A DNA stretch of 36,927 bases from Actinomycetota bacterium (lineage in GTDB: Bacteria; Actinomycetota; Humimicrobiia; Humimicrobiales; Humimicrobiaceae). Location of the stretch: the NCBI GenBank assembly GCA_028698215.1, contig JAQVDY010000012.1:5486-42412 (forward strand), read 5' to 3'. Under the pieces are notes generated by a model, which was given only the letters and a program-made list of their open reading frames with translations, searched no databases and had not been told where the DNA came from. The translations under genes and the position numbers were made by a program. This document shows, piece by piece, positions 2,743 through 36,519 of this stretch (position 1 is the stretch's first letter; each line of letters starts with the position of its first letter).

Positions 2743-4251
2743 ATGGCTAAAAAAATATTAAAGGGGTTGATTTTTGGTTTCATCCTGATGTTGGTGTGGG
2801 GACTATCTACCAGTTTATTTGCTCAGGAGGCGGAAGATTATGAGTTTACAGCAAAAGACAAACTGATATTGACACAACCCAGCATCTGCTATGTTACCAC
2901 TATTTATTATGGGTATATCTATGATCCCAATTTTGAAGAATGGTCTGTGCAATACATGTACGGTCCTATGGGGGGCACTGGCTTTTGTGTTAATCCCGAA
3001 ACAGGGCATTTAGTTACAGCGGCACATGTGATAGAAGATGATTATGTAAACATTAAGTGGTCTATACTGGATGCTTATATTTTTGATACCTATCCCGATG
3101 ATTATTATAATCTTACCGATAATGACTGGAACTGGATTTATGATAACTACAAAGTGGAAGGGGAGACTACCACTGAGCTGGATCGTGAGGTTTGGATACA
3201 GTTCAATACTGCCACTGCGGGGCTGCCGGATAATCCGGATACCACCTATATCAGGGCAGAGGTAATAGATTCCAGCCCCTGGAATCAAAGAGATATAGCC
3301 ATCTTAAAAATACAGCCGGTTACCGGCAGGGCATTATCTTCTGTGATGATTGGTGATTCATCCATGGTAGAGATCCAGGATTCTTTAACTATTATAGGCT
3401 ATCCCTGGAATGCAGATATAAGCTTGGAATCCATTATGACTCCTACCATAACTTCCGGCATGATAAGTGCTAAAAAGATGCTGGAGGGGACTGAAGTTCT
3501 CCAGGTAGATGGTACGGCAGCTGCTGGTAACAGCGGAGGCCCGGTATTAAACGAAAAAGGCGAGGTAATAGGCATACTTACCATGGGTACCTCTGAAAAT
3601 ATTAATTACCTGAGGCCTTCCAATGATATAAAAGAAATGCTTAACCGCAATGGAGTGGTAAACAAACTGGGCCAGGTAGATGAAAACTTTGCTAAGGGTT
3701 TGGCTATGTACAGGCAGAGCCATTATGCTGAAGCAATGAAGTACTTTGATGCGGTTCTAAATTCCAGCCAGGGCCATTTGCAGGCACAGGAATACAAGGC
3801 TAACAGCCAGGCAGCTATTGACAGGGGAGAAGATACCCCCCTGGTTGCGCTTACAGAACCGGCAGAAACTGCTGAAGAAACCGCAGAAACCCCTTCCCCT
3901 GTAGCAGAAGAGCCGGTTCAGGCAGCAGAAGCAGAAGCAGAAGCAGAAGAAGCTGAAACATGGGGGCCGGTAGCAGAAGAAACGGGAACAGGGTCATTTG
4001 CTTTAGGCTTAGGCCTTATAATTTTGCTGTTTGTAGTTATACCCCTGGTGATTTTAGCAGCAGTGATAATAATTATAGTCTGGCTGGTAAAAAGGAAAAA
4101 CAAAGCAGCTGCAGCTCCCGTGACTCCGGCAGCTCCTGCAGGAGAAGTAAAGAAAGAAACCAAACCCCAGGCTAAATTCTGTCCTTCCTGTGGGAAAGAA
4201 GTAAAAGAAGACCAAAAATTCTGCGCCAATTGCGGGGAGAAGATAGAATAG
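2743..4251 (+). CDS. Secreted, membrane-tethered trypsin-like serine protease with C-terminal zinc ribbon
   Basis: A 502-residue protein. Residues 1-27 form a signal peptide (KK, hydrophobic stretch, SLFA cleavage site before QE). A chymotrypsin-fold protease domain follows, with apparent triad H95 (VTAAHV), D184 (QRDIAILKI) and S264 (AAGNSGGPV), resembling S1C/HtrA or colicin-V-type proteases; no PDZ domain is evident. Residues 314-360 resemble one TPR unit. A Glu/Ala-rich linker (about 370-416) leads to a transmembrane helix (418-449), a basic stop-transfer RKNK, an Ala/Pro linker and a four-Cys zinc ribbon (C480, C483, C494, C497). Predicted topology puts the protease outside and the ribbon in the cytoplasm. 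Its own promoter and the terminator behind it make it a single-gene unit. The substrate is unknown. Confidence 0.85.
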   Translation: MAKKILKGLIFGFILMLVWGLSTSLFAQEAEDYEFTAKDKLILTQPSICYVTTIYYGYIYDPNFEEWSVQYMYGPMGGTGFCVNPETGHLVTAAHVIEDDYVNIKWSILDAYIFDTYPDDYYNLTDNDWNWIYDNYKVEGETTTELDREVWIQFNTATAGLPDNPDTTYIRAEVIDSSPWNQRDIAILKIQPVTGRALSSVMIGDSSMVEIQDSLTIIGYPWNADISLESIMTPTITSGMISAKKMLEGTEVLQVDGTAAAGNSGGPVLNEKGEVIGILTMGTSENINYLRPSNDIKEMLNRNGVVNKLGQVDENFAKGLAMYRQSHYAEAMKYFDAVLNSSQGHLQAQEYKANSQAAIDRGEDTPLVALTEPAETAEETAETPSPVAEEPVQAAEAEAEAEEAETWGPVAEETGTGSFALGLGLIILLFVVIPLVILAAVIIIIVWLVKRKNKAAAAPVTPAAPAGEVKKETKPQAKFCPSCGKEVKEDQKFCANCGEKIE

Positions 4252-4270
4252 CAAACTTTTAACATGCTAA

Positions 4271-4301
4271 AAAGGGGCCGGCTTGGGCCGGCCCCTTTTT
4301 T
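4271..4301 (+). terminator. Rho-independent terminator after the protease gene
   Basis: GC-rich 9-bp perfect stem GGGGCCGGC/GCCGGCCCC (4274-4282 with 4287-4295), loop TTGG, flanked by AAA on the left and a T6 run on the right (4296-4301). The A-tract means it may also work for the opposite strand. Confidence 0.93.
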
Positions 4302-4302
4302 A

Positions 4303-4331
4303 TTGAATTTTTATTGTTATAATAATACAAT
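4303..4331 (+). promoter_or_regulatory. Promoter of the ilvD leader
   Basis: TTGAAT (4303-4308), 17-nt spacer, TACAAT (4326-4331), placed directly behind the upstream terminator. A start near 4338 would give a leader of about 275 nt before ilvD. Confidence 0.6.
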
Positions 4332-4372
4332 TATGATAGTATTAATGCCTAATTAAAATTCCTTTATTAGTT

Positions 4373-4498
4373 ATGGGAAATAGAGTCAAAAAAGACAAGT
4401 TAAATGTATTTTTTAGAACCAACGGTTCTTCTATATGCGTGCCTTCATTAGCTGTTATTTCCCTAGTCTGTCTATTACTAGTCGGTATTCTATCTTAA
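4373..4498 (+). CDS. Putative branched-chain amino acid leader peptide (41 codons)
   Basis: A short ORF in the ilvD 5' leader: ATG at 4373, TAA at 4496-4498. Residues 24-40 read PSLAVISLVCLLLVGIL, so 11 of the last 16 residues before the final Ser are Leu, Val or Ile. Four of the six Leu codons here are CTA, which looks uncommon in the neighbouring genes. This is the classic composition of leader peptides that sense charged tRNA in ilv/leu attenuation. The upstream half is ordinary, and no clear Shine-Dalgarno precedes the ATG; an in-frame GTG at 4439 would give a 20-codon version starting MPSLAV. It must be separated from a second overlapping ORF (4433-4541). The peptide probably has no function beyond being translated. 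Confidence 0.55.
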   Translation: MGNRVKKDKLNVFFRTNGSSICVPSLAVISLVCLLLVGILS

Positions 4499-4554
4499 AC
4501 CTTAGGGTTGACGATAGTTACTTACTATTCAATCCTATTTAAACCGGAGGTTTA
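4415..4554 (+). promoter_or_regulatory. ilvD leader region with alternative hairpins
   Basis: Three small hairpins share an AACC...GGTT core: AGAACC/GGTTCT (4415-4429), AACC/GGTT (4498-4509) and TAAACC/GGTTTA (4540-4554). TAAACC at 4496-4501, overlapping the stop of the 41-codon ORF, is identical to 4540-4545, so both can pair with GGTTTA at 4549-4554. The third hairpin also holds a ribosome-site-like GGAGG (4546-4550). I see no strong GC hairpin with a U-run, so control may act on translation rather than by a terminator. No T-box motif is present. The rest of the gene-free stretch 4302-4614 is AT-rich and shows nothing else. Confidence 0.4.
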
Positions 4555-4561
4555 CCTATTT

Positions 4562-4618
4562 ATGTTTTTGCATATAGATTTATTAGAAGAATATTTAAAA
4601 TCTGAGGAGGAAAATTGA
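4562..4618 (+). CDS. Putative 18-codon upstream ORF overlapping the ilvD start
   Basis: ATG at 4562, TGA at 4616-4618, encoding 18 residues of which five are Leu or Ile (MFLHIDLL at its start). A GGAGG lies 11 nt upstream of the ATG, inside the loop and right arm of the leader hairpin. The stop overlaps the ilvD TTG codon (4615-4617), the geometry expected for translational coupling. It may equally be a chance ORF in an AT-rich leader; the overlap and the ribosome site are the arguments for it. Confidence 0.35.
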
Positions 4619-6273
4619 GAAGTGATGATATGAAAAAGGGCATTGAAAGAATGTCCCATCGCTCACTGCTTAAAGCTACAGGATTGACTGATCAGGAGCT
4701 TTCCAGGCCTATAATAGGAGTTGTTAATTCAGTAAATGAATTAGTTCCAGGACATATAAACCTGGATAAAATTGCAGAAGCAGTTAAAGCGGGAATAAGG
4801 GCAGCCGGCGCTACTCCCTTGGAGTTTAGCACCATTGGCGTTTGTGACGGTATAGCTATGAATCATAAGGGTATGAAATACTCGCTGGCTACCAGGGAGA
4901 TTATAGCTGACAGCATTGAAGCTACAGCTATGGCCCATCCTTTTGACGGTCTGGTGCTAATTCCCAATTGTGACAAAATTGTGCCGGGCATGCTTATGGC
5001 AGCCTTAAGGCTTAATATTCCTTCCGTGCTCATCAGCGGAGGCCCCATGCTGGCCGGCAGCATGGATTCCGGGGTGGTAGACCTTAGCAGTTGTTTTGAA
5101 GCGGTAGGTAAATACAAGAAAGGTTTATATAATGACCAGGACATATTGGATTTGGAGGAAGAGGCCTGTCCCACCTGTGGAAGCTGTTCCGGTATGTTTA
5201 CCGCTAATTCCATGAATTGCCTCTCTGAAGCCATAGGCCTTGCTTTACCTGGTAACGGAACCATCCCTGCGGTTTTAGCTAAAAGGATAAGATTAGCCAA
5301 GCAGGCTGGTTTTAAGATAGTGGAAATGGTAGAAAAGGATATCAAGCCCAGGGATATCGTAACCCTGGACACTATAAAAAATGCACTTACCGTAGACATG
5401 GCTTTAGGGTGCTCCACCAATACCGTGCTCCACCTTCCGGCCATAGCCCATGAAGCCAAGGTAGATTTTTCGCTGGAGCTGGTAAACCAGGTTAGCCAGG
5501 GTACTCCAAACCTTTGCCGCCTGAGCCCGGCAGGAGAGTATCATATAGAAGATTTGTATGCAGCAGGGGGAGTACAGGCGGTTATGAAAGAGCTTTTTGA
5601 CCACCAGTTAATAAATGGAGAGTTGATGACAGTAACCGGCCAAAAGGTAAAAGATAATATTAAGGATGCTAATATTAAAAATAATGAAGTTATAAGGACT
5701 GTAACTGATCCTTATTCCAAGGATGGGGGGATAGCTATACTCTGGGGCAACCTGGCACCAGAGGGATGTGTAGTCAAGAGGTCTGCAGTGGATGCGAAAA
5801 TGATGCAGTATAGGGGCAGGGCCAAAACCTTTAACAGCGAAGAGGATGCCATGAAGGCCATATGGGAAAATAAGGTTGAAAGGGGAGACGTGGTGGTTAT
5901 ACGCTACGAGGGTCCCCAGGGAGGCCCCGGCATGAGGGAAATGCTTTCACCAACCTCTGCCATAGCAGGGATTGGCCTGGATAAAGAAGTTGCTTTAATT
6001 ACTGATGGAAGATTTTCTGGAGCTACCAAAGGCGCGTCTATTGGACATATTTCTCCTGAAGCTCAAGCTGGCGGCCCTATATGCATAGTGGAAGATGGAG
6101 ATGAGATTGAAATTAATATTCCATCCAACAGTATAAACCTGTTAGTGGATGAAGAGGTTATAAAACAAAGGCTGGCTAAATGGAGCCCTCCCCCGCCTAA
6201 AATTACCGAGGGTTATCTGGCCAGGTATTCAAAACTGGTAACCTCCGCCCACAGGGGAGCTATACTGGAATAG
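4615..6273 (+). CDS. ilvD: Dihydroxy-acid dehydratase IlvD (first copy)
   Basis: A 552-residue IlvD/Edd-family dehydratase converting 2,3-dihydroxy-isovalerate and dihydroxy-methylvalerate to the keto acids of valine/leucine and isoleucine. The TTG start is chosen because it gives the canonical MRSDxxKKGxER-type N-terminus and follows a GAGGAGG site by 4 nt; the next ATG at 4630 is too far. The iron-sulfur region shows PNCDK (C119) and [18 protein letters not shown] (C191 the likely ligand). The early segment reads NELVPGH without the extra Cys of [2Fe-2S] types, as in E. coli-type enzymes. The C-terminus has [14 protein letters not shown] and [20 protein letters not shown]. It is probably controlled by the leader upstream. 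Confidence 0.95.
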
Positions 6274-6297
6274 GGGAATTTTTGATAATTTAATTAA

Positions 6298-6325
6298 TTG
6301 AAATTGTAACAGAAAATGATATAAT
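6298..6325 (+). promoter_or_regulatory. Promoter of the ilvB operon
   Basis: TTGAAA (6298-6303), 16-nt spacer, extended -10 TGA-TATAAT (TATAAT at 6320-6325). It lies in the 102-nt gap between ilvD and ilvB, so the ilvB group can be transcribed independently of the ilvD leader. Confidence 0.65.
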
Positions 6326-6375
6326 CATTCAAACTGTTATAAAGTTGTTACTAACTCAATTTTTTAGGAGTTGAT

Positions 6376-8073
6376 ATGAGTAAAATATCTGGAGCGCAGA
6401 TGACTATAAATTGCCTGAAGCAAGAGGGCGTAGAGGTTATCTTTGGATACCAGGGAGGCAAGGTTATTCCCTTTTATGACTGTCTTTTTGATTCGGACAT
6501 AAAACACATACTGGTAAGGCACGAGCAGGGAGCAGCCCATGCTGCTGACGGTTATGCCAGGGTTACCGGCAAAACAGGGGTTTGTGTTGCTACTTCCGGA
6601 CCGGGAGCTACCAATTTGGTTACCGGTATCGCCAATGCTTATATGGATTCGGTTCCCATGGTAGCCATTACTGGCCAGGTGTCCACTGCTGAAATAGGCA
6701 CTGATGCCTTCCAGGAGGCAGATATAACCGGGATTACTGCTCCCATAACCAAACATAATTATTTGGTTAAGGATATAAAAATGCTGCCTTCCATTATTAA
6801 GGAAGCTTTCTATATTGCTTCCACCGGCAGGCAGGGGCCGGTACTTATAGATATACCTATAGATATATCCCAGGGAATGATAGATGAGGATATGCTGGGA
6901 GAGATTGACCTGCCGGGTTACAAACCCACTTACAAGGGCAATCAAAAACAAATAAAAGAAGCAGCTAAGAAAATATTTGACAGTAAAAAACCGGTAATCT
7001 TTTCTGGAGGGGGAGTTGTAGCTTCGGGAGCAAGCCAGATACTTACCCAATTTGCAGCCAAGGCGCAGATCCCGGTTATTACTTCCATGTTGGGCAAGGG
7101 TTCTTTTCCTGAAGATCACAAACTCTCGCTGAATATGGCAGGAATGCATGGTACCAAGTATGCCAATATAGCTTTTACTGAAGCCGACCTAATAATTGCG
7201 GTAGGGGCCAGGTTCGATGACCGGGTAACCGGAAAGGTGTCCGGTTTTGCCCCTCATGCCGATATCATACACATAGATATAGATCCGGCTGAAATTGGCA
7301 AGATTGTAAAGACCGTACTGCCCATAGTGGGCAATGCCAAGGATGTTATGGCTGACCTTAGCCAGAGGTACTTTGAGCTGGATAATAAAAAGAGCATAGC
7401 TAAAAAGAAGCCATGGATTGACTTTTTGATGGATATCAAACAAAAACATGGCTTAAGATATGATACCAAGTCCCCAAACCTTAAACCTGGCTATATAATT
7501 GAAAAGATTTATAAGGCTACCAAAGGCGATGCTATTATATGCACCGAAGTAGGCCAGAACCAAATGTGGGCTGCACAGTTTTATACCTATACCCAGCCCA
7601 GAACCTTTATTTCTTCCGGGGGGCTGGGAACTATGGGTTTTGGTTTGCCTGCAGCCATAGGGGCCAAAGTTGGCAGGCCGGACAAAATAGTAATAGATAT
7701 TGCTGGAGACGGAAGCCTTCAGATGGTTTCACAGGAGCTGGCTACTGCAGTCAGCCATGATATTCCGATAAAGATTATGTTGCTCAATAACGGTTATCTG
7801 GGGATGGTAAGACAGTGGCAAGAACTGTTTTTTGACAAGCGTTATTCCAATACCTGCATCAAGGAATGTGTAGATTTTGTAAAGCTGGTTGAAGCGTATG
7901 GCGGTGTGGGGATTAGGGTTACTGATAAAAAAGAGGTTGAGCCGGCAATTAACAAAGCCTTGAAACTGGATAAGGTGGTACTGGTAGATTTTTGCATTGA
8001 GGCTGAGGAAAACGTATATCCCATGGTTCCGCCGGGAGCGCCTATTAATAAAATGCTAGAATGGAATATTTAA
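6376..8073 (+). CDS. ilvB: Acetolactate synthase large (catalytic) subunit
   Basis: 565 residues, normal for the biosynthetic enzyme. It uses ThDP to condense pyruvate with pyruvate or 2-oxobutyrate. The catalytic Glu is E50 in RHEQGAAHAADGYAR; the FAD-binding middle domain shows GARFDDRVTGK; the ThDP motif starts at GDGS (444-447) and ends at NNG (471-473); MVRQWQELFF is typical of biosynthetic acetohydroxy acid synthases, as opposed to the catabolic FAD-free type. A strong site (aggag) precedes the ATG. It is followed by its regulatory subunit after 13 nt. Confidence 0.96.
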   Translation: MSKISGAQMTINCLKQEGVEVIFGYQGGKVIPFYDCLFDSDIKHILVRHEQGAAHAADGYARVTGKTGVCVATSGPGATNLVTGIANAYMDSVPMVAITGQVSTAEIGTDAFQEADITGITAPITKHNYLVKDIKMLPSIIKEAFYIASTGRQGPVLIDIPIDISQGMIDEDMLGEIDLPGYKPTYKGNQKQIKEAAKKIFDSKKPVIFSGGGVVASGASQILTQFAAKAQIPVITSMLGKGSFPEDHKLSLNMAGMHGTKYANIAFTEADLIIAVGARFDDRVTGKVSGFAPHADIIHIDIDPAEIGKIVKTVLPIVGNAKDVMADLSQRYFELDNKKSIAKKKPWIDFLMDIKQKHGLRYDTKSPNLKPGYIIEKIYKATKGDAIICTEVGQNQMWAAQFYTYTQPRTFISSGGLGTMGFGLPAAIGAKVGRPDKIVIDIAGDGSLQMVSQELATAVSHDIPIKIMLLNNGYLGMVRQWQELFFDKRYSNTCIKECVDFVKLVEAYGGVGIRVTDKKEVEPAINKALKLDKVVLVDFCIEAEENVYPMVPPGAPINKMLEWNI

Positions 8074-8086
8074 GCAGGTGGTATAA

Positions 8087-8572
8087 ATGAATCATATAAT
8101 TTCAGTATTGGTAGAGAATAAGGCGGGCGTGCTGGCCAAGATAGCAGGTCTTTTTGGCAGAAGGGGATTTAATATTGACAGCTTGGTGGTAGGACCCACA
8201 GAAGATGACCGTATCTCCAGGATCACCATTGTCGTTTCTGCAGATACCCAGGGCATCGAGCAGGTTATCAAACAGCTTTATAAGTTAATAAATGTGTTGA
8301 AAATCCAGGAACTGGACCCCAAGAATATTGTAGAAAGGGAACTGGTGCTGATAAAGGTTTCTACTGATTCCAAGAACCGGGCAGAGATTTTAGAAATTGT
8401 AAATATATTCAGGGCTAATATAGTAGATGTTGCGAAAAAGTCCCTGCTTATTGAGATTACGGGAACTTCCAGCAAGGTCAATGCCTTAAAGGAGCTATTG
8501 GAACCTTTTGGAATTTTGGAATTAACCCGTACCGGCAAGATTGCTTGTAGCCGGGGGAGTAAAAAAATTTGA
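8087..8572 (+). CDS. ilvN: Acetolactate synthase small (regulatory) subunit
   Basis: 161 residues. An N-terminal ACT domain (ISVLVENKAGVLAKIAGLFGRRGFNIDSL, residues 4-32 in outline) is followed by the ALS small-subunit C-terminal domain (ERELVLIKV to the end). It binds valine and activates and feedback-inhibits IlvB. The ribosome site aggtgg lies before the ATG. In many bacteria ilvC follows here; in this window a class V aminotransferase follows instead. Confidence 0.95.
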   Translation: MNHIISVLVENKAGVLAKIAGLFGRRGFNIDSLVVGPTEDDRISRITIVVSADTQGIEQVIKQLYKLINVLKIQELDPKNIVERELVLIKVSTDSKNRAEILEIVNIFRANIVDVAKKSLLIEITGTSSKVNALKELLEPFGILELTRTGKIACSRGSKKI

Positions 8573-8605: not shown

Positions 8606-9766
8606 ATGATTAAGAAATATATTATGACACCAGGCCCCACGCCAATATCTGAAGAGGTTTTACTAGAGCATGCCAGGCCGCTAATGCATCATAGATCCCC
8701 TGAATTTTCTGAGATTTTTACTCAGATGACTGATAAGTTAAAGAAGCTGTTAAGAACTGAAAATGATGTGTTTTTCCTAACATCTTCAGGTACCGGAGCC
8801 ATGGAAGCTGCAGTAGTAAATGCTTTTTCCCCTAATGATAAGGTCCTGGTAGCTAGCGTAGGTAATTTTGGGGAACGATTTAAAAAGTTAAGCAAGATGT
8901 ATGGGCTGGATTTGATTTCCATTGATTATGAATGGGGTGAGGCTATAAATCCCCAGGATATAAAGGAAGCTTTGGAAAAAGATAAGGATATCAAAGGGGT
9001 TATGTTCCAGTTTAGTGAAACTTCTACCGGTATTTTAAATGATGCAGAAGCTATTGCTAAAATAGTAAATGAATATGATGCTATTACCATAGTGGATGCC
9101 ATAAGCGGCTTGGGGGCTTCCAGGTTGGAAACAGACCAATGGGGACTGGATATAGTAATAGGCGGTTCCCAGAAAGCTTTAAGCGCCCCTACCGGAGGAG
9201 CTTTCATCAGTGTTAGCCCAAAGGCCTGGGAGCTTATTGAAAAATCTACTAACCCCAGGTTCTATTTTAATCTGCTAAATGCCAGGGAAGCTGCCCGAAG
9301 AAACCCACCCCAGACTCCCTGGACTCCGGGCATTTCTATAATAGTGGCCATGAACAAGGCTTTGGATATGCTGCTGGAAGAGGGTTTGGAAAATGTATTT
9401 AAAAGGCACCATGTGCTGGCTATGGCTACCCAGACTGCAGTGGAAAAATTAGGTTTAAAGCTATTGGTTGCCAACCCTGAAAACAGGGGAGACTCTGTAA
9501 CTTCCATTGAGATTCCCGAAGGGATTGACGGCAAAAAGCTTACCACCATCATGCGGACCAAATATGGGGTAACCGTAGCTGGAGGCCAGGGCAAATTAAA
9601 AGGGAAAATCTTTAGGATTGGCCATTTGGGATGGTTTGGAATGTTTGATACTATTATTGCAATTTCAGCACTTGAATTAGCGCTGGCTGAGCAGGGCTAT
9701 GAACTGGAAATAGGTTCTGGCGTAGCTGCTGCCCAGAAAGTATTTTTTGAAAATAATTATCTTTAA
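8606..9766 (+). CDS. Class V PLP aminotransferase (serine-pyruvate/alanine-glyoxylate type), probable partner of SerA
   Basis: 386 residues of the AGXT/serine-glyoxylate aminotransferase family. The N-terminus MTPGPTPISEEVL and LMHHRSPEF bind substrate and cofactor in this family; SSGTGAMEAAV holds the phosphate; D164 (IVDAISGLG) and K190 (GGSQKALSAPTGG) are the expected PLP Asp and Schiff-base Lys. The C-terminus has RIGHLGWF. It lies 20 nt upstream of serA and no SerC-type gene is seen, so it may act as the phosphoserine or serine transaminase of the serine pathway. Substrate specificity cannot be settled by sequence; alanine-glyoxylate or serine-pyruvate activity is also possible. It has a strong ribosome site (aaggagg). 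Confidence 0.85.
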   Translation: MIKKYIMTPGPTPISEEVLLEHARPLMHHRSPEFSEIFTQMTDKLKKLLRTENDVFFLTSSGTGAMEAAVVNAFSPNDKVLVASVGNFGERFKKLSKMYGLDLISIDYEWGEAINPQDIKEALEKDKDIKGVMFQFSETSTGILNDAEAIAKIVNEYDAITIVDAISGLGASRLETDQWGLDIVIGGSQKALSAPTGGAFISVSPKAWELIEKSTNPRFYFNLLNAREAARRNPPQTPWTPGISIIVAMNKALDMLLEEGLENVFKRHHVLAMATQTAVEKLGLKLLVANPENRGDSVTSIEIPEGIDGKKLTTIMRTKYGVTVAGGQGKLKGKIFRIGHLGWFGMFDTIIAISALELALAEQGYELEIGSGVAAAQKVFFENNYL

Positions 9767-9786: not shown

Positions 9787-11376
9787 ATGAAAAAAAAGGT
9801 ATTAATAACCGATGGTATTTCACCTCAGCCCAAGGAATATTTGGAACAGTATTTTATTGTGGATGATAAGAAAGGCATTAGTCCTGAAGAACTAAAAAAA
9901 ATAATAGGCGACTATAATGCAATCATAATCAGGAGTGCCACCAAGCTGACTGCAGACATAATTGAAAAAGCGGATACTATGGAGATTATCGGGCGGGCAG
10001 GTATAGGAGTGGATAATGTAGATCTGGATATGGCTACCCAGAAAGGAATTGTAGTGGTTAATGCTCCCACCAGCAATGCGGTCACCGTAGCCGAGCATAC
10101 TATAGGCCTACTATTGGCCGTAGCCAGGAAGATACCTTCTGCTGACACTTCCCTTAAGGGGGGAAAGTGGGAGAAATCAAAGTTTAAAGGCATAGAAATT
10201 GAAGGGAAAACCCTGGGCATAGTAGGCTTTGGGCAAATAGGGGGGCTGGTAGCTAAAAAAGCTATGGGACTGGGCATGGATATAATGGCCTTCGATCCTT
10301 TTGTTTCTGAAGACAGGTTCAAGCAATTGGGCATAAAGAAGGCTGATACCCTGGATGACATTTACCAGGCAGCTGACTTTATAACCATACATCTCCCCAA
10401 AAACAAGGATACCCTGGGAATGTTTAAGGCTGAGGAATTTAAAAAGATGAAAAAGGGTACCATAATACTTAATGTAGCCAGGGGCGGAATTGTAGTGGAA
10501 GAAGATCTGGCCCAGGCTATCAGGGAAGGACAGATCGGGGGAGCGGCAGTAGATGTGTATTCTAAGGAACCCTGCACAGACTCTCCTTTGTTTGATTTGG
10601 AAACAGTGGTATGTACGCCCCACTTGGGAGCCTCTACTACTGAAGCCCAGGACCGGGCAGGCAGTATAATAGCGGAACAGGTGGTATCTGTACTCCAAGG
10701 CGGAACTCCTGCCTTTCCAGTTAATGCTCCATCCGTAGCTAAAGAAGTAATGGAAGCCCTCTCCCCCTATTTTGAGCTTTGCGACAATATGGGTATGCTG
10801 TTTAGCGGTCTGTTTGACGGAAACCTGGAGAATATTAAAATTATCTTCAGCGGAAAAGTAGCTGAATATGATACCAGCATATTGAAATCCAGGATACTGG
10901 TAAAGATACTTGGCAAATATTCCATGCATGATGTAAACATGGTAAACGTGGGCTTGATAGCTGATGAAAACGGGCTAAAGGTTGAAGAAGTAAAAACCAG
11001 CAAGTCCAGTGATTTTGTTAATCTAATTACCCTGGAAGGTTCTGGCAAGGACGGCAACCTTTCTATTTCGGGCACTATTACCGGCAAGAAGAACAAGCCC
11101 AGGTTTATAGGAGTGGATGAATTTGAGCTGGATATGGTTCCCTCACCCCATATGGCCTTTATCAGGTATGAAGATGTACCGGGCCAGATTGGCAAGATAG
11201 GAACTGCTTTTGGAGAACTGGGTGTAAACATAGCGGCTATGCATGTCGGCAGGAAGAAGAAAAGCGGCGACGCCGTAATGGGCCTAAACCTGGATGCGGA
11301 AGTTACTCCGGAAATGCTGGAGCAGTTTAAACAAATTTCCAGTTTTGAAAACATTAAAATTGTAAATATGGTTTAA
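9787..11376 (+). CDS. serA: D-3-phosphoglycerate dehydrogenase
   Basis: 529 residues, the long SerA type. It oxidises 3-phosphoglycerate to 3-phosphohydroxypyruvate with NAD, the first step of serine synthesis. The NAD motif is GFGQIG (147-152); catalytic residues are R232 (NVARGGIV), E261 (SKEP) and H279 (CTPHLGAST). An intervening ASB-type domain spans about 320-445, and a C-terminal ACT domain begins at MAFIRYEDVPGQIGKIG (456-472), which suggests serine feedback control. It follows the class V aminotransferase and precedes leuA by 18 nt within one run of genes. Serine genes in the middle of a branched-chain operon point to common demand for amino acids. Confidence 0.95.
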   Translation: MKKKVLITDGISPQPKEYLEQYFIVDDKKGISPEELKKIIGDYNAIIIRSATKLTADIIEKADTMEIIGRAGIGVDNVDLDMATQKGIVVVNAPTSNAVTVAEHTIGLLLAVARKIPSADTSLKGGKWEKSKFKGIEIEGKTLGIVGFGQIGGLVAKKAMGLGMDIMAFDPFVSEDRFKQLGIKKADTLDDIYQAADFITIHLPKNKDTLGMFKAEEFKKMKKGTIILNVARGGIVVEEDLAQAIREGQIGGAAVDVYSKEPCTDSPLFDLETVVCTPHLGASTTEAQDRAGSIIAEQVVSVLQGGTPAFPVNAPSVAKEVMEALSPYFELCDNMGMLFSGLFDGNLENIKIIFSGKVAEYDTSILKSRILVKILGKYSMHDVNMVNVGLIADENGLKVEEVKTSKSSDFVNLITLEGSGKDGNLSISGTITGKKNKPRFIGVDEFELDMVPSPHMAFIRYEDVPGQIGKIGTAFGELGVNIAAMHVGRKKKSGDAVMGLNLDAEVTPEMLEQFKQISSFENIKIVNMV

Positions 11377-11394: not shown

Positions 11395-12906
11395 ATGTCT
11401 AGAAAAATATATATTTTTGACACTACGTTAAGGGATGGCGAACAGGCCCCGGGCATACATTTAAATGTAAAGGAAAAACTGGAAGTTGCCCAACAGCTGG
11501 AAAAATTAAATGTAGATATTATTGAAGCCGGCTTTCCCATATCTTCCCTGGGTGATTTTGAGTCAGTTAGGGAGGTGTCCAAAACTATCAAGGACAAGGC
11601 AGTGGCGGCACTGGCCAGGGCTATAATCAAGGATATTGATGCAGCAGGCGAGGCTTTAAAGCCAGCCCGTAACCCGGTCATACATACCTTTGTGTCTTCT
11701 TCGGACATTCATTTAAAGTACCAGTTTAATAAAACCAGGGAACAGGCCTTAGAAATGGCAGCGGAAGCAGTAAAAAGGTCCAGAAAATATACGGATATAG
11801 TGGAGTTTTCAGCTATGGATGCCACCCGGAGTGACTGGGATTTTTTGTGCAGGCTGTATGAGGCTGCAATTTCTAATGGAGCTACCATTATTAATGTACC
11901 CGATACGGTAGGCTACGCCCTGCCTGACGAGTATGCCAGGCTGATTGAGTATCTTAAAACCAATGTAAAAGGCATTGAAGATGTAGTTATAAGTGTGCAC
12001 TGCCATGATGACCTGGGTTTGGCCGTAGCTAATTCTATCCTGGCTATAGAAAAAGGGGCAGGCCAGGTAGAATGTGCTGTAAATGGGATCGGTGAGAGAG
12101 CGGGCAATGCTTCTTTGGAAGAAGTAGCCATGATTATTGACACCAGGAAAAAAGACCTGGATGTATATACCGATATAAATATATCGGAAATAATGAGGAC
12201 CAGCAGCCTGGTTCGTCATCTTACCGGCTATGCGGTGGCTCCCAATAAGGCTATTGTAGGTAAAAATGCTTTCATGCATGAAGCGGGCATACACCAGGAT
12301 GGAATGCTTAAGGAGCGCAGTACCTATGAGATTATAAAGCCGGAGGATATAGGGGTTAAATCTTCAAAACTGGTATTAGGGAAGCACTCGGGACGCCATG
12401 CTTTTGTCAATAAACTGGCCGAGTTGGGATTAAAACTTAATGAAGAAGACCTGGAAAAAGCTTTCACCAGGTTCAAGGGTCTAGCAGAGAAGAAGGGCCA
12501 TATTAATGATAAGGACCTTAAAGCTATAGTTGAAGATGAAATAAGGGAAGCATCCGAGTATTTTAAATTGAACTATTACCAGGTTATAAGTGGTACCAAT
12601 GTAAAAGCTACCGCTACTATAGGCATAAATGCAGGGAACGGCCTCCAGGAGGGGGCAGCTTGGGGTGACGGCCCAATTGATGCCTCGTTTAAGGCTATTG
12701 ACAGTATATTGGGATTAAATGCCCAGCTGGTTGACTACAATATAGAAGCGGTGTCTGAAGGAAAAGATGCTATTGGTTCAGTAAGGATCATAGTTAGTTC
12801 AGAAGGCACTGAGGTTATGGGCAGCGGTATAAGTACCGATATAATTGAAGCTAGTATTAAGGCTTATGTTGATGCCATGAACAGGATAAAGGAAAGTATA
12901 GAATAA
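11395..12906 (+). CDS. leuA: 2-isopropylmalate synthase
   Basis: 503 residues. It condenses acetyl-CoA with 2-oxoisovalerate, the first step committed to leucine. The HMGL-like TIM barrel begins [13 protein letters not shown] (8-20); the metal-binding pair is H202 and H204 in [14 protein letters not shown], followed by [14 protein letters not shown]; the C-terminal LeuA allosteric domain runs from about 365 to the end and ends [26 protein letters not shown] and the [15 protein letters not shown] segment fit isopropylmalate synthase over citramalate synthase, and the separate cimA gene downstream supports this. Confidence 0.94.
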
Positions 12907-12917
12907 AGGAGGATAAT

Positions 12918-14192
12918 TTGTCACAGGATAAACCTCAAACTATGGCCCAAAAAATATTGGCGGCCCATTGTGACCAGGAGTTTGTAAGCGAGGGGGAAAT
13001 AGTTAATGCCCGGGTAGATATTGTACTGGGCAATGATATTACTATGCCCCTGGCCATTAAAGAATTTAAAAAAATAGGGGCAAAATCTGTATTTGATCCG
13101 GAAAGGGTAGTAATAGTGCCGGATCATTTTACTCCTAACAAGGATATAAAGTCTGCCCAGCAATGCAAGGTGGTGAGAGGTTTTGCCTCAGACCAGGATA
13201 TCAGCAACTATTTTGAGGTAGGCAGGATGGGAATAGAGCATGCCTTACTGCCTGAACAGGGCCTGGTAGTAGCTGGAGACCTTATTGTGGGCGCTGATTC
13301 CCATACCTGTACCTATGGAGCCCTGGGAGCAGCTGCTACCGGGGTAGGAAGCACTGACCTTGCTGTAGCTATGGCTACCGGCAAGCTATGGTTCAGGGTT
13401 CCTGAAAGCATGAAATTTGTATATAGCGGAGAGCTTAAACCATGGGTAACCGGAAAGGATTTAATACTTTATACCATTGGCTTAATTGGGGTAGAGGGGG
13501 CGCTGTATAGGTCAATGGAATTTTCAGGGCCAGTGATAGAAAAACTTTCCATGGATTCACGGTTTACCATGTCTAATATGGCTATAGAAGCGGGCGGCAA
13601 ATTTGGTATCATTGAGGCGGACAATACTACTGAGCAGTATTTAAAGCAGAGAGCTAAAAGGCCTTACCGTATATACACCAGTGATGCTGATGCTAATTAT
13701 TATAAGGAATATGATATTGATTGTTCACAGATAGAGCTCCAGGTTTCCACTCCCCACCTGCCGTCCAATGCTAAACCTGCTGTCCAGCTTAAAGGCCAGT
13801 CTATTGACCAGGTAGTAATCGGTTCCTGCACTAATGGCAGGATGGAGGATTTACAGGTAGCATCAAAAATACTGGAAGGCAAAAGGGTCAAGCCAGGCTT
13901 GAGGGTAATCATTATACCGGCTACCCAGAATATTTATCTGGAAGCCATGCGCAAGGGCTACCTGGAGACTTTTGTGCAGGCAGGATGTGTGGTCAGCACT
14001 CCTACTTGCGGCCCCTGCCTGGGTGGCCATATGGGTATACTGGCCGAAGGAGAAAGGGCCTTGTCTACTACTAACCGTAATTTTGTAGGCAGGATGGGGC
14101 ATCCTGGGAGCGAAGTTTACCTTTGCGGCCCCGCTGTAGCGGCCGCTTCAGCTGTAACTGGAACAATTTCTACACCTGAGGAGGTTTTATGA
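12918..14192 (+). CDS. leuC: 3-isopropylmalate dehydratase large subunit
   Basis: 424 residues, the shorter LeuC2/archaeal-type subunit (the E. coli type is about 465). With LeuD it isomerises 2- to 3-isopropylmalate, and in the citramalate route also citramalate to 3-methylmalate. The [4Fe-4S] ligands are C304 (IGSCTNGR), C364 and C367 ([13 protein letters not shown]). The start is TTG at 12918, 5 nt after AAAGGAGG; no nearby ATG offers a better site. Its last bases overlap leuD by 4 nt (ATGA), indicating coupled translation of the two subunits. Confidence 0.94.
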
Positions 14193-14683
14193 TAATCAGG
14201 GATAAGGCATTAAAGTATGGCCATAATGTGGATACAGATGTAATTATACCGGCCAGGTATCTGAATACCAGTGATCCGGACGAGTTGGCTTCACATTGTT
14301 TTGAAGACCTGGACCAGGACTTTGGCTATAAACTAGCGGATAAAAAAATAGTAGTAGCCGGGCAGAATTTTGGCTGCGGTTCCTCCCGTGAGCATGCCCC
14401 TCTGGCTATCAAGGGAAGTGGAGTAAAGTTGGTTATTGCCGCTTCTTTTGCCCGTATTTTTTTCAGGAATGCCATAAATATAGGCCTTCCGGTAATACAA
14501 AGCAAAGAGGCATCCACCCAGATAAGGGAAGGAGATGAGCTGGAAGTAGATTTGGGCCAGGGGACTATAAACAATATAACCCAGGGAAAATCATATGAGG
14601 TTAAGCCCCTTCCGGATTTCATACAGAAGGTTATTGCCAGCGGTGGCTATATCAATTTTATAAAACAGCAATTAGATAGTTAG
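14189..14683 (+). CDS. leuD: 3-isopropylmalate dehydratase small subunit
   Basis: 164 residues, the short LeuD2-type swivel domain matching the short LeuC. Visible motifs are [14 protein letters not shown] (13-26), [17 protein letters not shown] (62-78) and [18 protein letters not shown]. It begins in an ATGA overlap with leuC and has a ribosome site (gaggagg) inside the leuC end. It forms the LeuCD complex and may serve both leucine and the citramalate branch, since only one LeuCD pair is present here. Confidence 0.95.
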
Positions 14684-14692
14684 GAATGGTTT

Positions 14693-15772
14693 ATGAGTAA
14701 GATAATGGTTTTGCCCGGTGACGGCATAGGCCCGGATATAACCAGGGAAGCAATTAGGGTTTTAGATTTTTTAAAGGAGCAATTCGACCTGGAAATTGAA
14801 TACCAGTATGGTTTGGTAGGGGGAGCCAGCATCGATGAATGCGGCTTGCCTATTACCGATTATTTGCTGGAACAATGCAAACAGTCTGATGCGGTATTGC
14901 TGGGGGCGGTCGGCGGCCCTAAATGGGACACCACCGAACCGGGAAAACCCAGGCCGGAGGAGGCCTTGCTAAAATTAAGGAAGGAGCTGGGCCTGTTTGC
15001 CAACCTAAGGCCGGTAAAGATTTTTGAGCCCCTGATATCGGCTTCAGCGTTAAAATCTTCATTGCTTAAAGGGGTGGATATACTGGTAATGAGGGAGCTT
15101 ACCGGAGGTATTTATTTCGGTCCCCGGGACAGGGTAACCAAAGAAGGGCACCTGGAAGCATATGATACCATGGTCTATGCTGATTATGAGATTGAAAGAA
15201 TTGCCCGGCTTGCCTTTGAATTTGCCGGCCAGCGGAAGGGAAAAGTTACCTCCATTGATAAGGCCAATATACTGGATAGTTCCAGGCTGTGGAGGGAAAT
15301 AGTAGTAAAAACTGCTGCTGGTTATCCTAAGGTAGAACTTAACCATATGTATATTGATAATGCCACCATGCAGCTTATTAGAAATCCCCTACAGTTTGAC
15401 GTAATACTGGCTTCCAATATGTTTGGCGATATATTAAGTGATGAGGCAGCTATGATCTCAGGCTCCATTGGGCTTCTGCCCTCTGCCTCTTTGGGACAGG
15501 ATATGAGCGGTATGTATGAACCCATACATGGAAGCGCTCCCGATATAGCGGGGCAGGATAAAGCTAACCCGGTGGCCACTATTCTTTCCCTGGCCTTGAT
15601 GCTAAGGTATACTTTTAACCGTGAAGATATATACAGCCTGGTAGAAAAATCTACCAGCCAGGTATTAGCCCAGGGATACAGGACACAGGATATATACGGA
15701 CAGGGCTGTCAACAGGTAGGTACAGAACAAATGGGCCAGCTTATTATTAAGCAGATAAGGAAAAATGTGTAA
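14693..15772 (+). CDS. leuB: 3-isopropylmalate dehydrogenase
   Basis: 359 residues of the isocitrate/isopropylmalate dehydrogenase family. It oxidatively decarboxylates 3-isopropylmalate and, in the citramalate route, 3-methylmalate to 2-oxobutyrate. Motifs: LPGDGIGPDI (7-16), GAVGGPKWD, LRKELGLFANLRPVK (typical LeuB), RELTGGIYFGPRD, and the NAD region EPIHGSAPDIAGQDKANPVA. The LeuB-type GGPKWD and LFANLRP argue against isocitrate or tartrate dehydrogenase. It is separated from leuD by 9 nt. Confidence 0.95.
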   Translation: MSKIMVLPGDGIGPDITREAIRVLDFLKEQFDLEIEYQYGLVGGASIDECGLPITDYLLEQCKQSDAVLLGAVGGPKWDTTEPGKPRPEEALLKLRKELGLFANLRPVKIFEPLISASALKSSLLKGVDILVMRELTGGIYFGPRDRVTKEGHLEAYDTMVYADYEIERIARLAFEFAGQRKGKVTSIDKANILDSSRLWREIVVKTAAGYPKVELNHMYIDNATMQLIRNPLQFDVILASNMFGDILSDEAAMISGSIGLLPSASLGQDMSGMYEPIHGSAPDIAGQDKANPVATILSLALMLRYTFNREDIYSLVEKSTSQVLAQGYRTQDIYGQGCQQVGTEQMGQLIIKQIRKNV

Positions 15773-15783
15773 GGGAGACCATT

Positions 15784-17376
15784 ATGCTAGAAAAAAAAGT
15801 CTACACCTTTGATACTACTTTAAGGGACGGGACCCAAAGCGCAGATATTTCCCTAACCGTCAGGGATAAGCTTGCTATTGTGGATAAGCTGGACCAGATT
15901 GGCATTGACTACATCGAGGTGGGCTTTCCGGCTTCCAATCCCAAGGATGAAGAGTTGTTCGGACAGCTTAAAAAAAGAAAATATGAGTATTCCAAGATTG
16001 TGGCTTTCGGCAGGACCAGATATAAGGACGCTAAGGCTGAAGAAGATAAAAACTTAAGGTTGTTAATTGAAGCTGGTACTGACAGTGTCTGTATTTTTGG
16101 AAAATCTTCTTCCCTGCATGTCCAAAAGGTTATCGAGACTTCTTTGGATAATAATTTGGCCATGATCTTTGAGTCCATAAAATATTTAAAAAATTATTTT
16201 TCTGAAGTCATCTTTGATGGTGAGCATTTTTTTGACGGCTACCAGCAGAATGCCTCCTATGCCCTGGATACTCTTAAGGCGGCAGAGGAGGCGGGAGCGG
16301 ATTTTCTGGTATTATGTGATACCAATGGTGGATTTTTGCCTAAAAAGGCCCTGGAAGTGGTACAAGCTGCCGCTAAAGAGGTCAATGCCCCTCTAGGGGT
16401 CCATTTCCATAATGACAGCGGCTGTGCTGTAGCCAATAGTGTTTATGCCATAGAAATGGTGGACCAGGTAAAGATGGTGCAGGGAACCATAAACGGCTAT
16501 GGGGAGCGCTGCGGCAATGCGGATTTATGCCAGATAATACCCAGCCTGGAAATAAAGCTGGGAAAGCAATGTTTAAAGGATGGAAACTTAAAACATATTA
16601 CCAGTCTGTCCCGTTTTGTAAGCGAGATTGCCAATCAAACCCATAACAGCCACCAGCCCTTCGTGGGCCAGAGTGCATTTGCCCACAAGGGAGGCATGCA
16701 TGTAAGCGGGGTAAGCAAGATTTCGGAAGCTTTTGAGCATATTGAACCTGAACTGGTAGGAAATACCAGGCGAATACTTATTTCAGAGCTTTCAGGCAAG
16801 AAATCCATCATACTTAAAGCCAGGGAATTTGGCATAAACCTGGAAAATGATTTGGAAAAAGTATCGGAAATATTGAACCGGGTACAAAACATGGAACACA
16901 AGGGCTATCAATTCGAGGCCGCTGACGGGAGCTTTGAGCTGCTGGTACGGGATGTGGCCGGAGTAAAAAAGAAGTTCTTTAACCTGGAAAGCTTCAGGGT
17001 GCTTAACGAGAAGAGGGCAGATGGCGAAATGCTTTCTGAAGCAACGGTAAAAGTATATATTGAAGGCAACCGGATAATAGAGACTGCAGAAGGAAACGGG
17101 CCGGTAAACGCCTTGGATAAGGCCTTGAGAAAAGCCATAGTAAACTGCTATCCGCAGATTGAAAAAATTGAACTTTCCGATTTTAAGGTAAGGGTATTAA
17201 ACGAAAAAATGGGTACAGCGGCCATGGTAAGAGTGCTCATAGAATCTACTGACGGGGAGAAGAGCTGGGGCACCATTGGAGTATCGGTTAATATTATCGA
17301 GGCCAGCTGGGAAGCCCTGGAAAATAGTATCATCTACGGCCTGATGCATGTGGAAAACAAAGAAAACCAAAAATAG
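15784..17376 (+). CDS. cimA: (R)-citramalate synthase
   Basis: 530 residues. It condenses acetyl-CoA and pyruvate to citramalate, opening a threonine-independent route to 2-oxobutyrate and isoleucine. The barrel starts [16 protein letters not shown] (9-24), where GTQSADIS is the CimA/CimA-like signature as opposed to GEQAPG in LeuA; other features are IFGKSSSLHV (104-113), EHFFDGY (147-153), H207 and H209 (GVHFHNDSGCAVANS), and a LeuA-type C-terminal regulatory domain (about 390-520). It follows leuB by 11 nt, so the LeuBCD enzymes that process citramalate are made from the same run. No threonine deaminase is in the window. Confidence 0.93.
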   Translation: MLEKKVYTFDTTLRDGTQSADISLTVRDKLAIVDKLDQIGIDYIEVGFPASNPKDEELFGQLKKRKYEYSKIVAFGRTRYKDAKAEEDKNLRLLIEAGTDSVCIFGKSSSLHVQKVIETSLDNNLAMIFESIKYLKNYFSEVIFDGEHFFDGYQQNASYALDTLKAAEEAGADFLVLCDTNGGFLPKKALEVVQAAAKEVNAPLGVHFHNDSGCAVANSVYAIEMVDQVKMVQGTINGYGERCGNADLCQIIPSLEIKLGKQCLKDGNLKHITSLSRFVSEIANQTHNSHQPFVGQSAFAHKGGMHVSGVSKISEAFEHIEPELVGNTRRILISELSGKKSIILKAREFGINLENDLEKVSEILNRVQNMEHKGYQFEAADGSFELLVRDVAGVKKKFFNLESFRVLNEKRADGEMLSEATVKVYIEGNRIIETAEGNGPVNALDKALRKAIVNCYPQIEKIELSDFKVRVLNEKMGTAAMVRVLIESTDGEKSWGTIGVSVNIIEASWEALENSIIYGLMHVENKENQK

Positions 17377-17385
17377 TTTCCCCTG

Positions 17386-17415
17386 TTGACGGCTGGCTTT
17401 TTGGTTAAATAAATA
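17386..17415 (+). promoter_or_regulatory. Possible internal promoter before the second ilvD
   Basis: TTGACG (17386-17391), 18-nt spacer, TAAATA (17410-17415), in the 57-nt gap after cimA. CCCCTG (17380-17385) can pair with CAGGGG (17421-17426), which covers part of the ilvD2 ribosome site. Both signals are weak. Confidence 0.3.
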
Positions 17416-17433
17416 CTAGTCAGGGGAGAATAA

Positions 17434-19110
17434 ATGTTTTGGAGAAGCAAAGAAATACTATCCGGACCAGAAAATTCCATCAAAAGGTCCTTGTACAAAT
17501 CCATGGGATTTACCCAGTCTGACCTGGAGAAACCCATAATAGCTATCGCTAATTCCTATAATAATATCTGCACCGGGCATTTTGGTTTAAAAGCTATTGC
17601 TGAAAAGGTAAAGGAAGGCATAAGGGCAGGTGGCGGAACCCCTGTGGAATTTGGTACCATTGCTGCTTGTGACGGCATCGCTCAGGCGGACCGGGGAATG
17701 AAATATATCCTGCCTACCAGGGAGGTAATTGCTGCCAGTATCGAAACCATGGTGGAAGCACATCATCTTGATGGGGTAGTGCTGTTGGGATCCTGCGATA
17801 AAATAGTTCCGGGTATGCTGATGGCTGCCGCCAGAATGGACCTGCCGGCTATACTGTTTAACAGCGGCCCTATGATGCCGGGAATAATTTCCAGGGAGAA
17901 TCCTTACGGGGGAAAAGAGATTGACGGTTCGGCTTTGGTTATGTATGCGGAGAAGGTCAAAAAGAACCTTTTTAGCCAGGAGGAGTTCGAACAGCTGGAA
18001 GAGCAGGCCCAACCTACGCACGGATCCTGTTCCATGCTGGGAACAGCAAATACCATGTGCTGTATTTCTGAGGCCCTGGGCCTTTCATTGCCAGGAAGTG
18101 CCATGGTACCTGCAGTAAGTTCGCACAGGCTTCAGTTGGCTATGGAAGCTGGACAGCAAATCATGGAGATGGTGAAACAGTCCATAACCACCAAGCAGAT
18201 ACTGGGCAGGGAGGCTTTAGAGAATGCAGTAATGCTTAATTCAGCTATAGGAGGCTCCACTAACTCCGTGCTGCACTTGCTGGCTATAGCTTATGAGGCA
18301 GGTATTGACTTGGATATAGAACAGTTTAGCCGGATCAGCCAGATGGTGCCTTACATAGCCCGGATTATGCCAGCGGGGCCCCATAGCGTGATTGAATTTT
18401 ACCGGGACGGGGGAGTACCGGCGGTAATGAACCAGATTAGGGATCATCTTAATTTAAGTGCGGTTACAGTGACCGGTAAAAGTATAGGCCAAAATATTGA
18501 GGGTGCCAGGATTATAACCGGCAAGGTAATTACCACTATTGATAAGCCTCATGGCAAATTTGGCGGAATTAAAGCCCTAAAAGGTAACCTGGCTCCGCAG
18601 GGAGCTATCTGCAGGCCTTCTGCCATTGACCCCCAACTTCATTACTTTAAGGGTCCGGCCAGGGTATTTGACAGCGAGGCTGAGGCTAATAAAGCGGTGT
18701 CTTCAGGGGAGATTTTGCCGGGCCAGGTAGTGGTAATACGGTATGAGGGTCCCAAGGGCTCGCCCGGTATGCCTGAGATGTGGAAAACATTAAAGCTTAT
18801 GGATGGCCAGGGCTTGGGCAAGAAAGCAGCCTTGGTTACAGATGGCAGGTTTTCCGGCTCCAATAACGGCTGTTTTGTGGGCCATATAAGCCCGGAAGCG
18901 GCCTCAGGAGGGCCTTTGGCAGCGGTAGAGGATGGGGACCTTATAATCATAGATATTGCGTCGGGACAGGTATCAGTAGAACTTACTGATGATGTTTTAA
19001 AGAAAAGGATGGCTAACCTTAAATTTATTCCAAAAGATGGGCTTAAGGGCTACCTGGCCTTTTACCGACGTCACGTGGGTTCTGCCTCTGAAGGAGCAAT
19101 ACTAAAATAA
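17434..19110 (+). CDS. Second IlvD/Edd-family dehydratase (dihydroxy-acid dehydratase paralogue)
   Basis: 558 residues, clearly paralogous to the first IlvD but divergent. The cluster region reads [10 protein letters not shown] (C121) and QPTHGSCSMLGTANTMCC (C199): the C-P-T-C of the first copy becomes Q-P-T-H, keeping the Cys usually taken as ligand. An extra Cys lies in YNNICTGHFG (C46), where [2Fe-2S] members carry a nearby ligand. The C-terminus has RYEGPKGSPGMPEM and DGRFSGSNNGCFVGHISPEA. Its place after cimA suggests dihydroxy-acid dehydratase duty with a different cluster or a preference for the isoleucine intermediate. Dehydration of a sugar acid is an alternative, since that activity is common in this family. 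Confidence 0.85.
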   Translation: MFWRSKEILSGPENSIKRSLYKSMGFTQSDLEKPIIAIANSYNNICTGHFGLKAIAEKVKEGIRAGGGTPVEFGTIAACDGIAQADRGMKYILPTREVIAASIETMVEAHHLDGVVLLGSCDKIVPGMLMAAARMDLPAILFNSGPMMPGIISRENPYGGKEIDGSALVMYAEKVKKNLFSQEEFEQLEEQAQPTHGSCSMLGTANTMCCISEALGLSLPGSAMVPAVSSHRLQLAMEAGQQIMEMVKQSITTKQILGREALENAVMLNSAIGGSTNSVLHLLAIAYEAGIDLDIEQFSRISQMVPYIARIMPAGPHSVIEFYRDGGVPAVMNQIRDHLNLSAVTVTGKSIGQNIEGARIITGKVITTIDKPHGKFGGIKALKGNLAPQGAICRPSAIDPQLHYFKGPARVFDSEAEANKAVSSGEILPGQVVVIRYEGPKGSPGMPEMWKTLKLMDGQGLGKKAALVTDGRFSGSNNGCFVGHISPEAASGGPLAAVEDGDLIIIDIASGQVSVELTDDVLKKRMANLKFIPKDGLKGYLAFYRRHVGSASEGAILK

Positions 19111-36430: not shown

Positions 36431-36519
36431 TGGTGCCGAAGGTCGGGGTCGAACCGACACGGACCTCGCGGCCCACTGGATTTTGAGTCCAGCGCGTCTG
36501 CCAATTCCGCCACTTCGGC
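36431..36519 (-). tRNA. tRNA-Leu, anticodon CAA
   Basis: On the minus strand: acceptor GCCGAAG pairs with CTTCGGC, and the CCA end is encoded (ACCA at 36434-36431). The anticodon stem CTGGA/TCCAG encloses CTCAAAA, giving anticodon CAA for the codon TTG. A long variable arm marks a class II tRNA (Leu), and the T-arm is GTCGG-TTCGACC-CCGAC. Its 3' end is 1 nt from the pfkA stop on the other strand, so the two are convergent. Length 89 nt. Confidence 0.96.

Follow-up and report, generated by a model that had tools for sequence, protein, structure and literature searches.

Evidence for probable leader-peptide attenuation of an ilv-leu operon, mostly without a canonical terminator, across one bacterial family

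Introduction

A short open reading frame (ORF) ending in a run of leucine, valine and isoleucine codons precedes ilvD in the window, i.e., the whole stretch of 36,927 nucleotides analyzed here. Does this ORF encode a leader peptide which senses charged tRNA and controls the ilv-leu operon, as an earlier note on this DNA had proposed, and by which output step would the control be exerted?

The ilv-leu operon and its neighbors

The operon was arranged in the order ilvD-ilvB-ilvN-class V aminotransferase-serA-leuA-leuC-leuD-leuB-cimA-ilvD2. The genes and the signals around the first of them were as follows.

4269..4300, + strand: intrinsic terminator of the preceding gene (2743-4251), 14-bp stem, -26.3 kcal/mol, T-tail
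4604..4610, + strand: Shine-Dalgarno of ilvD, conserved GGAGG just upstream of the start
4615..6273, + strand: ilvD, dihydroxy-acid dehydratase, first structural gene, TTG start (TIGR00110, 787.8 bits)
6376-8073, + strand: ilvB, acetolactate synthase (TIGR00118 and TIGR00119 matches for ilvB/ilvN)
8087-8572, + strand: ilvN, acetolactate synthase (same pair of matches)
8606-9766, + strand: class V aminotransferase
9787-11376, + strand: serA
11395..19110, + strand: leuA, leuC, leuD, leuB, cimA and the second ilvD paralogue

The start of ilvD was conserved in relatives as GGAGG followed by TTG, GTG, or ATG-AGAAGTGAT, and the start in the window was the TTG at 4615. The U-tailed terminator at 4269-4300 indicates that the clade uses ordinary U-tailed terminators.

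The second ilvD-family gene (17434-19110) immediately followed cimA as part of this operon and showed 47% identity to the first. A similar paralogue was found in only a few relatives, i.e., G001, G002, and G026, and was frame-broken in G007. By eye, the gap between ilvD and ilvB (6274-6375) contains a promoter-like TTGAAA-16-TATAAT, from which the operon might also be transcribed internally. Elsewhere in the window, a homologue of BshA, related to bacillithiol synthesis, was found at 463-1569 (511.8 bits), which is noteworthy if the host is an actinomycete.

The leader ORF and its likely promoter

The following features were assigned between the upstream terminator and the leader stop.

4314..4342, + strand: likely leader promoter, TTGTTA (4314-4319), 17 nt, extended -10 TG-A-TAGTAT (4334-4342), assigned by eye
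4373..4498, + strand: leader ORF, ATG to TAA, 41 codons, no clear Shine-Dalgarno, counterpart found in 31/31 family genomes
4415..4429, + strand: hairpin P0, within the leader ORF just upstream of the control codons
4448..4495, + strand: control codons, last 16 codons of the leader, 11 of them Leu/Val/Ile

The leader ORF was translated as MGNRVKKDKLNVFFRTNGSSICVPSLAVISLVCLLLVGILS. Translation confirmed what the earlier note had read here, i.e., an ORF of 41 codons ending with 11 branched-chain residues in 16, with CTA accounting for four of that run's six Leu codons. The same note held that a missing ribosome site weakened the case. No Shine-Dalgarno was visible for the leader in the window; it was also absent in several relatives which carry clear leaders, so the objection loses its weight, and AGGG or AAGGGA was present in others.

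The likely promoter of the window leader scored under the threshold of a consensus promoter scan. At the equivalent place in relatives, the motifs TTGTTnT and TATGnTATnAT recurred. The 3' arm of P0 ended 44-88 nt (mostly 53-70) before the leader stop in relatives. The combined signal of P0 across relatives gave a Fisher chi2 of 134 on 56 df, and the window alone gave p = 0.19. That P0 serves as a pause hairpin is a guess.

Conservation of the leader

The family sample comprised 35 genomes, and the region upstream of ilvD was readable in 31. A short ORF rich in branched-chain amino acid (BCAA) codons was found before ilvD in all 31, three of these ORFs being cut by contig ends. The leaders were 34-55 aa long, carried 9-13 Leu, Ile, or Val among their last 16 residues, and lay 97-368 nt from ilvD. 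These are incomplete metagenome assemblies of one family, and genomes of one genus are not independent. The earlier suggestion to look in relatives for a conserved Leu/Val/Ile-rich ORF with variable flanks thus had a clear outcome, i.e., the run recurred in every readable genome and the N-terminal part drifted, the changed codons between close relatives being mostly nonsynonymous.

Outside the family, such an ORF was found at one of 66 ilvD loci (L089). This locus belongs to an unrelated unclassified bacterium, and its BCAA-rich leader ORF (MAHAAIAKINAATILSSTTLLLTVTVLLVGLVRLTVVL) lies approximately 229 nt upstream of ilvD. In the neighboring family f2 (G035), no leader was seen by eye upstream of ilvD. 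In the family of the window, Trp-rich leaders before trpE were not found. The hisG gene of the window sits within an operon.

AT-rich DNA often contains short ORFs, and B. subtilis controls its ilv-leu operon by a T-box (PMC5794164). A chance ORF within a region governed by a riboswitch or T-box was therefore considered. The sequences upstream of ilvD in the family were shuffled by a first-order Markov model, and the best ORF from start to stop was taken from each 420-nt region; it had at least 11/16 Leu/Ile/Val in 0.4% of cases and at least 13 in 0/6200. Against this rate, the window leader by itself is suggestive; the decisive point that the ORF did not arise by chance is its recurrence in 31/31 family genomes. 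In the leader region of the window and in the loci of 20 relatives, no Rfam family, be it a T-box or another riboswitch, was detected at gathering threshold. This explanation is scarcely credible. Weak Rfam matches at 4200-4400 were rejected, as all scored below gathering and were caused by the upstream terminator.

Residue and codon usage of the run

Among the last 16 residues of the 31 leaders, Leu, Ile, and Val made up 74%, whereas Phe (0.4%), Ala (1%), and Met (0.4%) were nearly missing and no Trp was found. This near absence of Phe, Ala, Met, and Trp points to selection on codon identity, not on hydrophobicity.

Codons of the family leader runs were compared with those of the genes of the window. 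CTA was used for 51 of 161 Leu codons in the runs (32%) vs 54 of 829 in genes (7%, p 1e-16), GTC for 52 of 83 Val codons (63%) vs 42 of 658 (6%, p 2e-32), and CTC for 19% vs 3% (p 5e-13). By contrast, GTA (4% in the runs vs 46% in genes), ATA (9% vs 47%), and the Leu codon TTG (4% vs 17%) were avoided. The only tRNA gene of the window, tRNA-Leu(CAA) at 36431-36519 on the minus strand, reads TTG. The Ser codon preceding the leader stop was TCC in 18 of 20 genomes vs 24% in genes; this codon is non-regulatory and has no sensing role. The leu attenuator of Salmonella uses CUA codons, and their replacement by CUG reduced its sensitivity (PMC1183508). In agreement with those experiments, the regulatory codons of the family are again picked for rarity, i.e., CTA, GTC, and CTC.

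A small single-pass membrane protein which happens to precede ilvD would carry basic residues at the N-terminus and, toward the C-terminus, a hydrophobic segment long enough for a helix, and the leader has both. However, this segment nearly lacks the Phe, Ala, Met, and Trp of membrane helices, the N-terminal part of the leader drifts, and rare codons are enriched in the run; neither a conserved sequence nor an ordinary helix composition was found. In addition, the synonymous sites of the run are constrained by RNA pairing, and its position is fixed relative to the hairpin after the stop. A membrane protein is very improbable.

Hairpins after the leader stop

Two alternative hairpins were predicted around the leader stop.

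4479..4527, + strand: hairpin A:B, -14.7 kcal/mol, last control codons and stop paired with post-stop sequence
4503..4511, + strand: segment B (UAGGGUUGA), beginning 5 nt past the leader stop
4529..4537, + strand: segment C (UCAAUCCUA), partner of B, p = 0.003 vs shuffles, covariation across the family
4503..4537, + strand: hairpin B:C, -12.6 kcal/mol, mutually exclusive with A:B

For B:C, the best helix starting at most 12 nt from the leader stop was chosen per sequence and compared with shuffles. Across the family the helix started 0-7 nt past the stop, and it was detected at p<=0.07 in 29/31 genomes; G004 gave p = 0.11 and G013 none. In G008 the helix found was an odd long-loop form. With 29 genomes anchored on the GG core (G008 and G013 left out), six core positions were paired in 92% of cells vs 34-48% when slid by 1-3 nt, a count in which the choice of a helix per sequence favors pairing. 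Outer positions showed CG/UA/AU/GC exchanges, i.e., covariation. The hairpin right after the leader stop is thus, from these alignments, kept by compensatory change across the whole family, mostly without a canonical terminator.

A:B rests mainly on a synonymous-codon test, because RNAalifold, run on genus g10 alone, predicted the hairpin without both-sided compensatory change. In that test the peptide was held constant and the codons were redrawn in the 31 genomes. Natural codons folded A:B better than this null (Fisher chi2 131 with gene usage and 147 with leader usage, 62 df), with 9-11 genomes at p<0.05, although related genomes do not count as independent. The strong preference for TCC at the Ser codon before the stop, described above, also speaks for A:B. 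The signal was absent in several genomes, i.e., G016, G019, G005, and those of genus g2. A:B is less firmly supported than the conserved ORF, the codon bias and the covarying B:C, which are seen directly in the compared sequences. A spacing rule between the last control codon and B is suggestive only. At locus L076 (G013), a perfect 21-bp hairpin of leader codons and post-stop sequence (-28.4 kcal/mol) was found in place of A:B and B:C.

Ribosome position and the proposed switch

In a scan of 30 genomes, the ribosome footprint was masked as far as position +12 relative to the A-site codon (textbook value) and the remainder was folded. With one of the codons -8 to -4 in the A site, B:C formed with a mean probability of 0.93-0.94; this value was 0.90 for codon -3, fell to 0.26 for codon -1, and was 0.02 when the stop was reached. 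In the window, it stayed at 0.95-0.96 from codon -8 to codon -2 and was 0.11 at the stop. Such modeled behavior is expected of any hairpin placed there; the weight lies in the conserved position. The free-RNA fold of the window already favored B:C (P 0.95), so an untranslated leader would share its state with a starved one. Mutually exclusive hairpins switched by ribosome position were thus found computationally, by covariation, the A:B test and the scan.

In genus g2 (G004, G025, and G018), an intrinsic terminator, AAACAGCAG...CTGCTGTTTTTTT, was found downstream. With the modeled ribosome halted anywhere from codon -12 to codon -6, B:C extended over the 5' arm of this terminator (P 0.80-0.91) before the 3' arm appeared. 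With the ribosome at the stop, the terminator formed with P 0.99-1.0. In G018, the antiterminator prevailed even at equilibrium in the model. In these foldings, the sister genus g2 is a complete classical attenuator with the full 1:2, 2:3, and 3:4 set. Since B:C is the antiterminator in g2, B:C is suggested to be the starvation or ON state.

A short ORF rich in codons for the products of the pathway was found upstream of a biosynthetic operon, as in attenuators. On the sequence comparison and the folding model, it is quite probable that the ilv-leu operon is under a ribosome-mediated, leader-peptide attenuator, and the earlier reading of the ORF as a charged-tRNA-sensing leader gains support from the 31/31 relatives with the run. 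The leader ORF would be translated while being transcribed, and its last approximately 16 codons, with many rare Leu/Val/Ile codons among them, would gauge the charging of branched-chain tRNAs. Under good charging, the ribosome would reach the stop and cover B, blocking B:C; A:B could re-form after release. Under poor charging, the ribosome would stall on the control codons, A would be masked, B would be free and B:C would form. By analogy with the antiterminator of g2, B:C would be the ON state and the C-free state OFF. Here the dependence of B:C on ribosome position is modeled, and we infer leader translation, the direction of control and, in the window's genome, the way in which the C-free state would lower expression.

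The missing terminator and the output step

Between the leader and ilvD, no canonical intrinsic terminator was found in the window's genome or in most relatives, whereas the three g2 species carry one, as is usual in leader-peptide attenuators. Pairing of C with a downstream segment D showed no excess over shuffles except in g2. Neither A:B nor B:C has a proper U-tail in the window. In the sister species G002, seven T follow B:C directly; this tail would suit the opposite sign there, not B:C as ON.

Two sub-hypotheses on the output step were weighed within the attenuator explanation. In the first, which is compatible with that explanation, the leader and switch are the same and the output is Rho-dependent termination, polymerase pausing or mRNA decay, gated by B:C vs A:B. 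The attenuator would then be terminator-less, and the ribosome-gated hairpin after the stop would itself control pausing, Rho access or mRNA fate. In its favor, the terminator was not found, rho was above the family cut-off in 30/35 genomes including that of the window, and actinobacterial cys leaders without a terminator have been reported, with Rho suggested (PMC1262725). However, the interval from C to ilvD is C-depleted (2-11% C) and no rut-like stretch was found in it, so Rho loading between C and ilvD was rejected, and nothing points to a pause or cleavage site. It is reasonable to consider this output a possibility, at somewhat less than even chance.

In the second, a two-state attenuator, termination would occur at A:B itself, whose 5' arm is formed by the control codons, and a stalled ribosome would block termination directly. 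A:B of -11 to -20 kcal/mol followed by a T-rich tract was found in genera g10, g13, g9, and g12 and in G003, where A:B itself may terminate. The U:A ratio was 1.84 between B and C vs 0.89 past C. However, the sequence after A:B in the window is TTCAATCC, with no U-tract, and C is located past the U-tract, which would leave the conserved B:C without a role. This form is rather doubtful, and less likely than the output without an intrinsic terminator.

Other candidates were rejected. Translational coupling through 4508-4618 was set aside, as the frame is kept only in the nearest relatives. This open frame begins with TTG at 4508 and its TGA overlaps the TTG start of ilvD; it is long in G000 and G002 and shorter in G007. 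CsrA binding at the GGA motif of B was rejected, as CsrA was found in 5/35 family genomes, with the window's genome among them.

Comparison with known attenuators

The earlier note called the exact arrangement new to its author. Listeria (Rli60, PMC5864092) and Staphylococcus (PMC5794164) are published cases of a BCAA-rich leader placed just before ilvD, and in this part the claim has to be qualified. The attenuation principle is textbook, and the missing terminator in most of these species is the difference. The leaders are set apart from plain leader-peptide attenuators because an intrinsic terminator was sought here and not found.

The Rli60 attenuator of Listeria monocytogenes responds to BCAA limitation (PMC5864092), and the same response is proposed for the window leader. 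Both have a BCAA-rich leader, ilvD as the first gene of the ilv-leu operon and alternative hairpins after the ORF. However, the Rli60 peptide has 13 aa and a clear terminator (PMC5864092), whereas the leaders here have 34-55 aa and mostly no canonical terminator. Listeria belongs to a different phylum from the family of the window, and the likeness noted here is one of arrangement. In Staphylococcus aureus, a Leu/Ile-rich peptide of 26 aa also precedes ilvD, with a ribosome binding site and a terminator hairpin 52 nt past the stop (PMC5794164). Here the switching hairpin is 0-7 nt past the stop, and the canonical terminator is missing.

The leu, ilv, and trp attenuators of E. coli and Salmonella, as modeled (PMC1183508), share the control codons at the leader end, the rare CUA Leu codons and the mutually exclusive 1:2 and 2:3 hairpins. 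Their 3:4 terminator is absent in the window's genome, and the likeness noted is again one of arrangement. Actinobacterial ilvB leaders of Corynebacterium, Mycobacterium, and Streptomyces share the phylum, the pathway and a peptide rich in regulatory codons, but they precede ilvB and have candidate terminators (PMC1262725), whereas the window leader precedes ilvD. Actinobacterial cys leaders are likewise rich in regulatory codons and have no evident intrinsic terminator. Their codons are those of cysteine and no conserved hairpin was reported for them (PMC1262725), whereas a covarying hairpin lies past the stop here.

The family appears to hold both a classical attenuator, in g2, and terminator-less versions. 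It would thus offer a natural series for the gain or loss of the output step.
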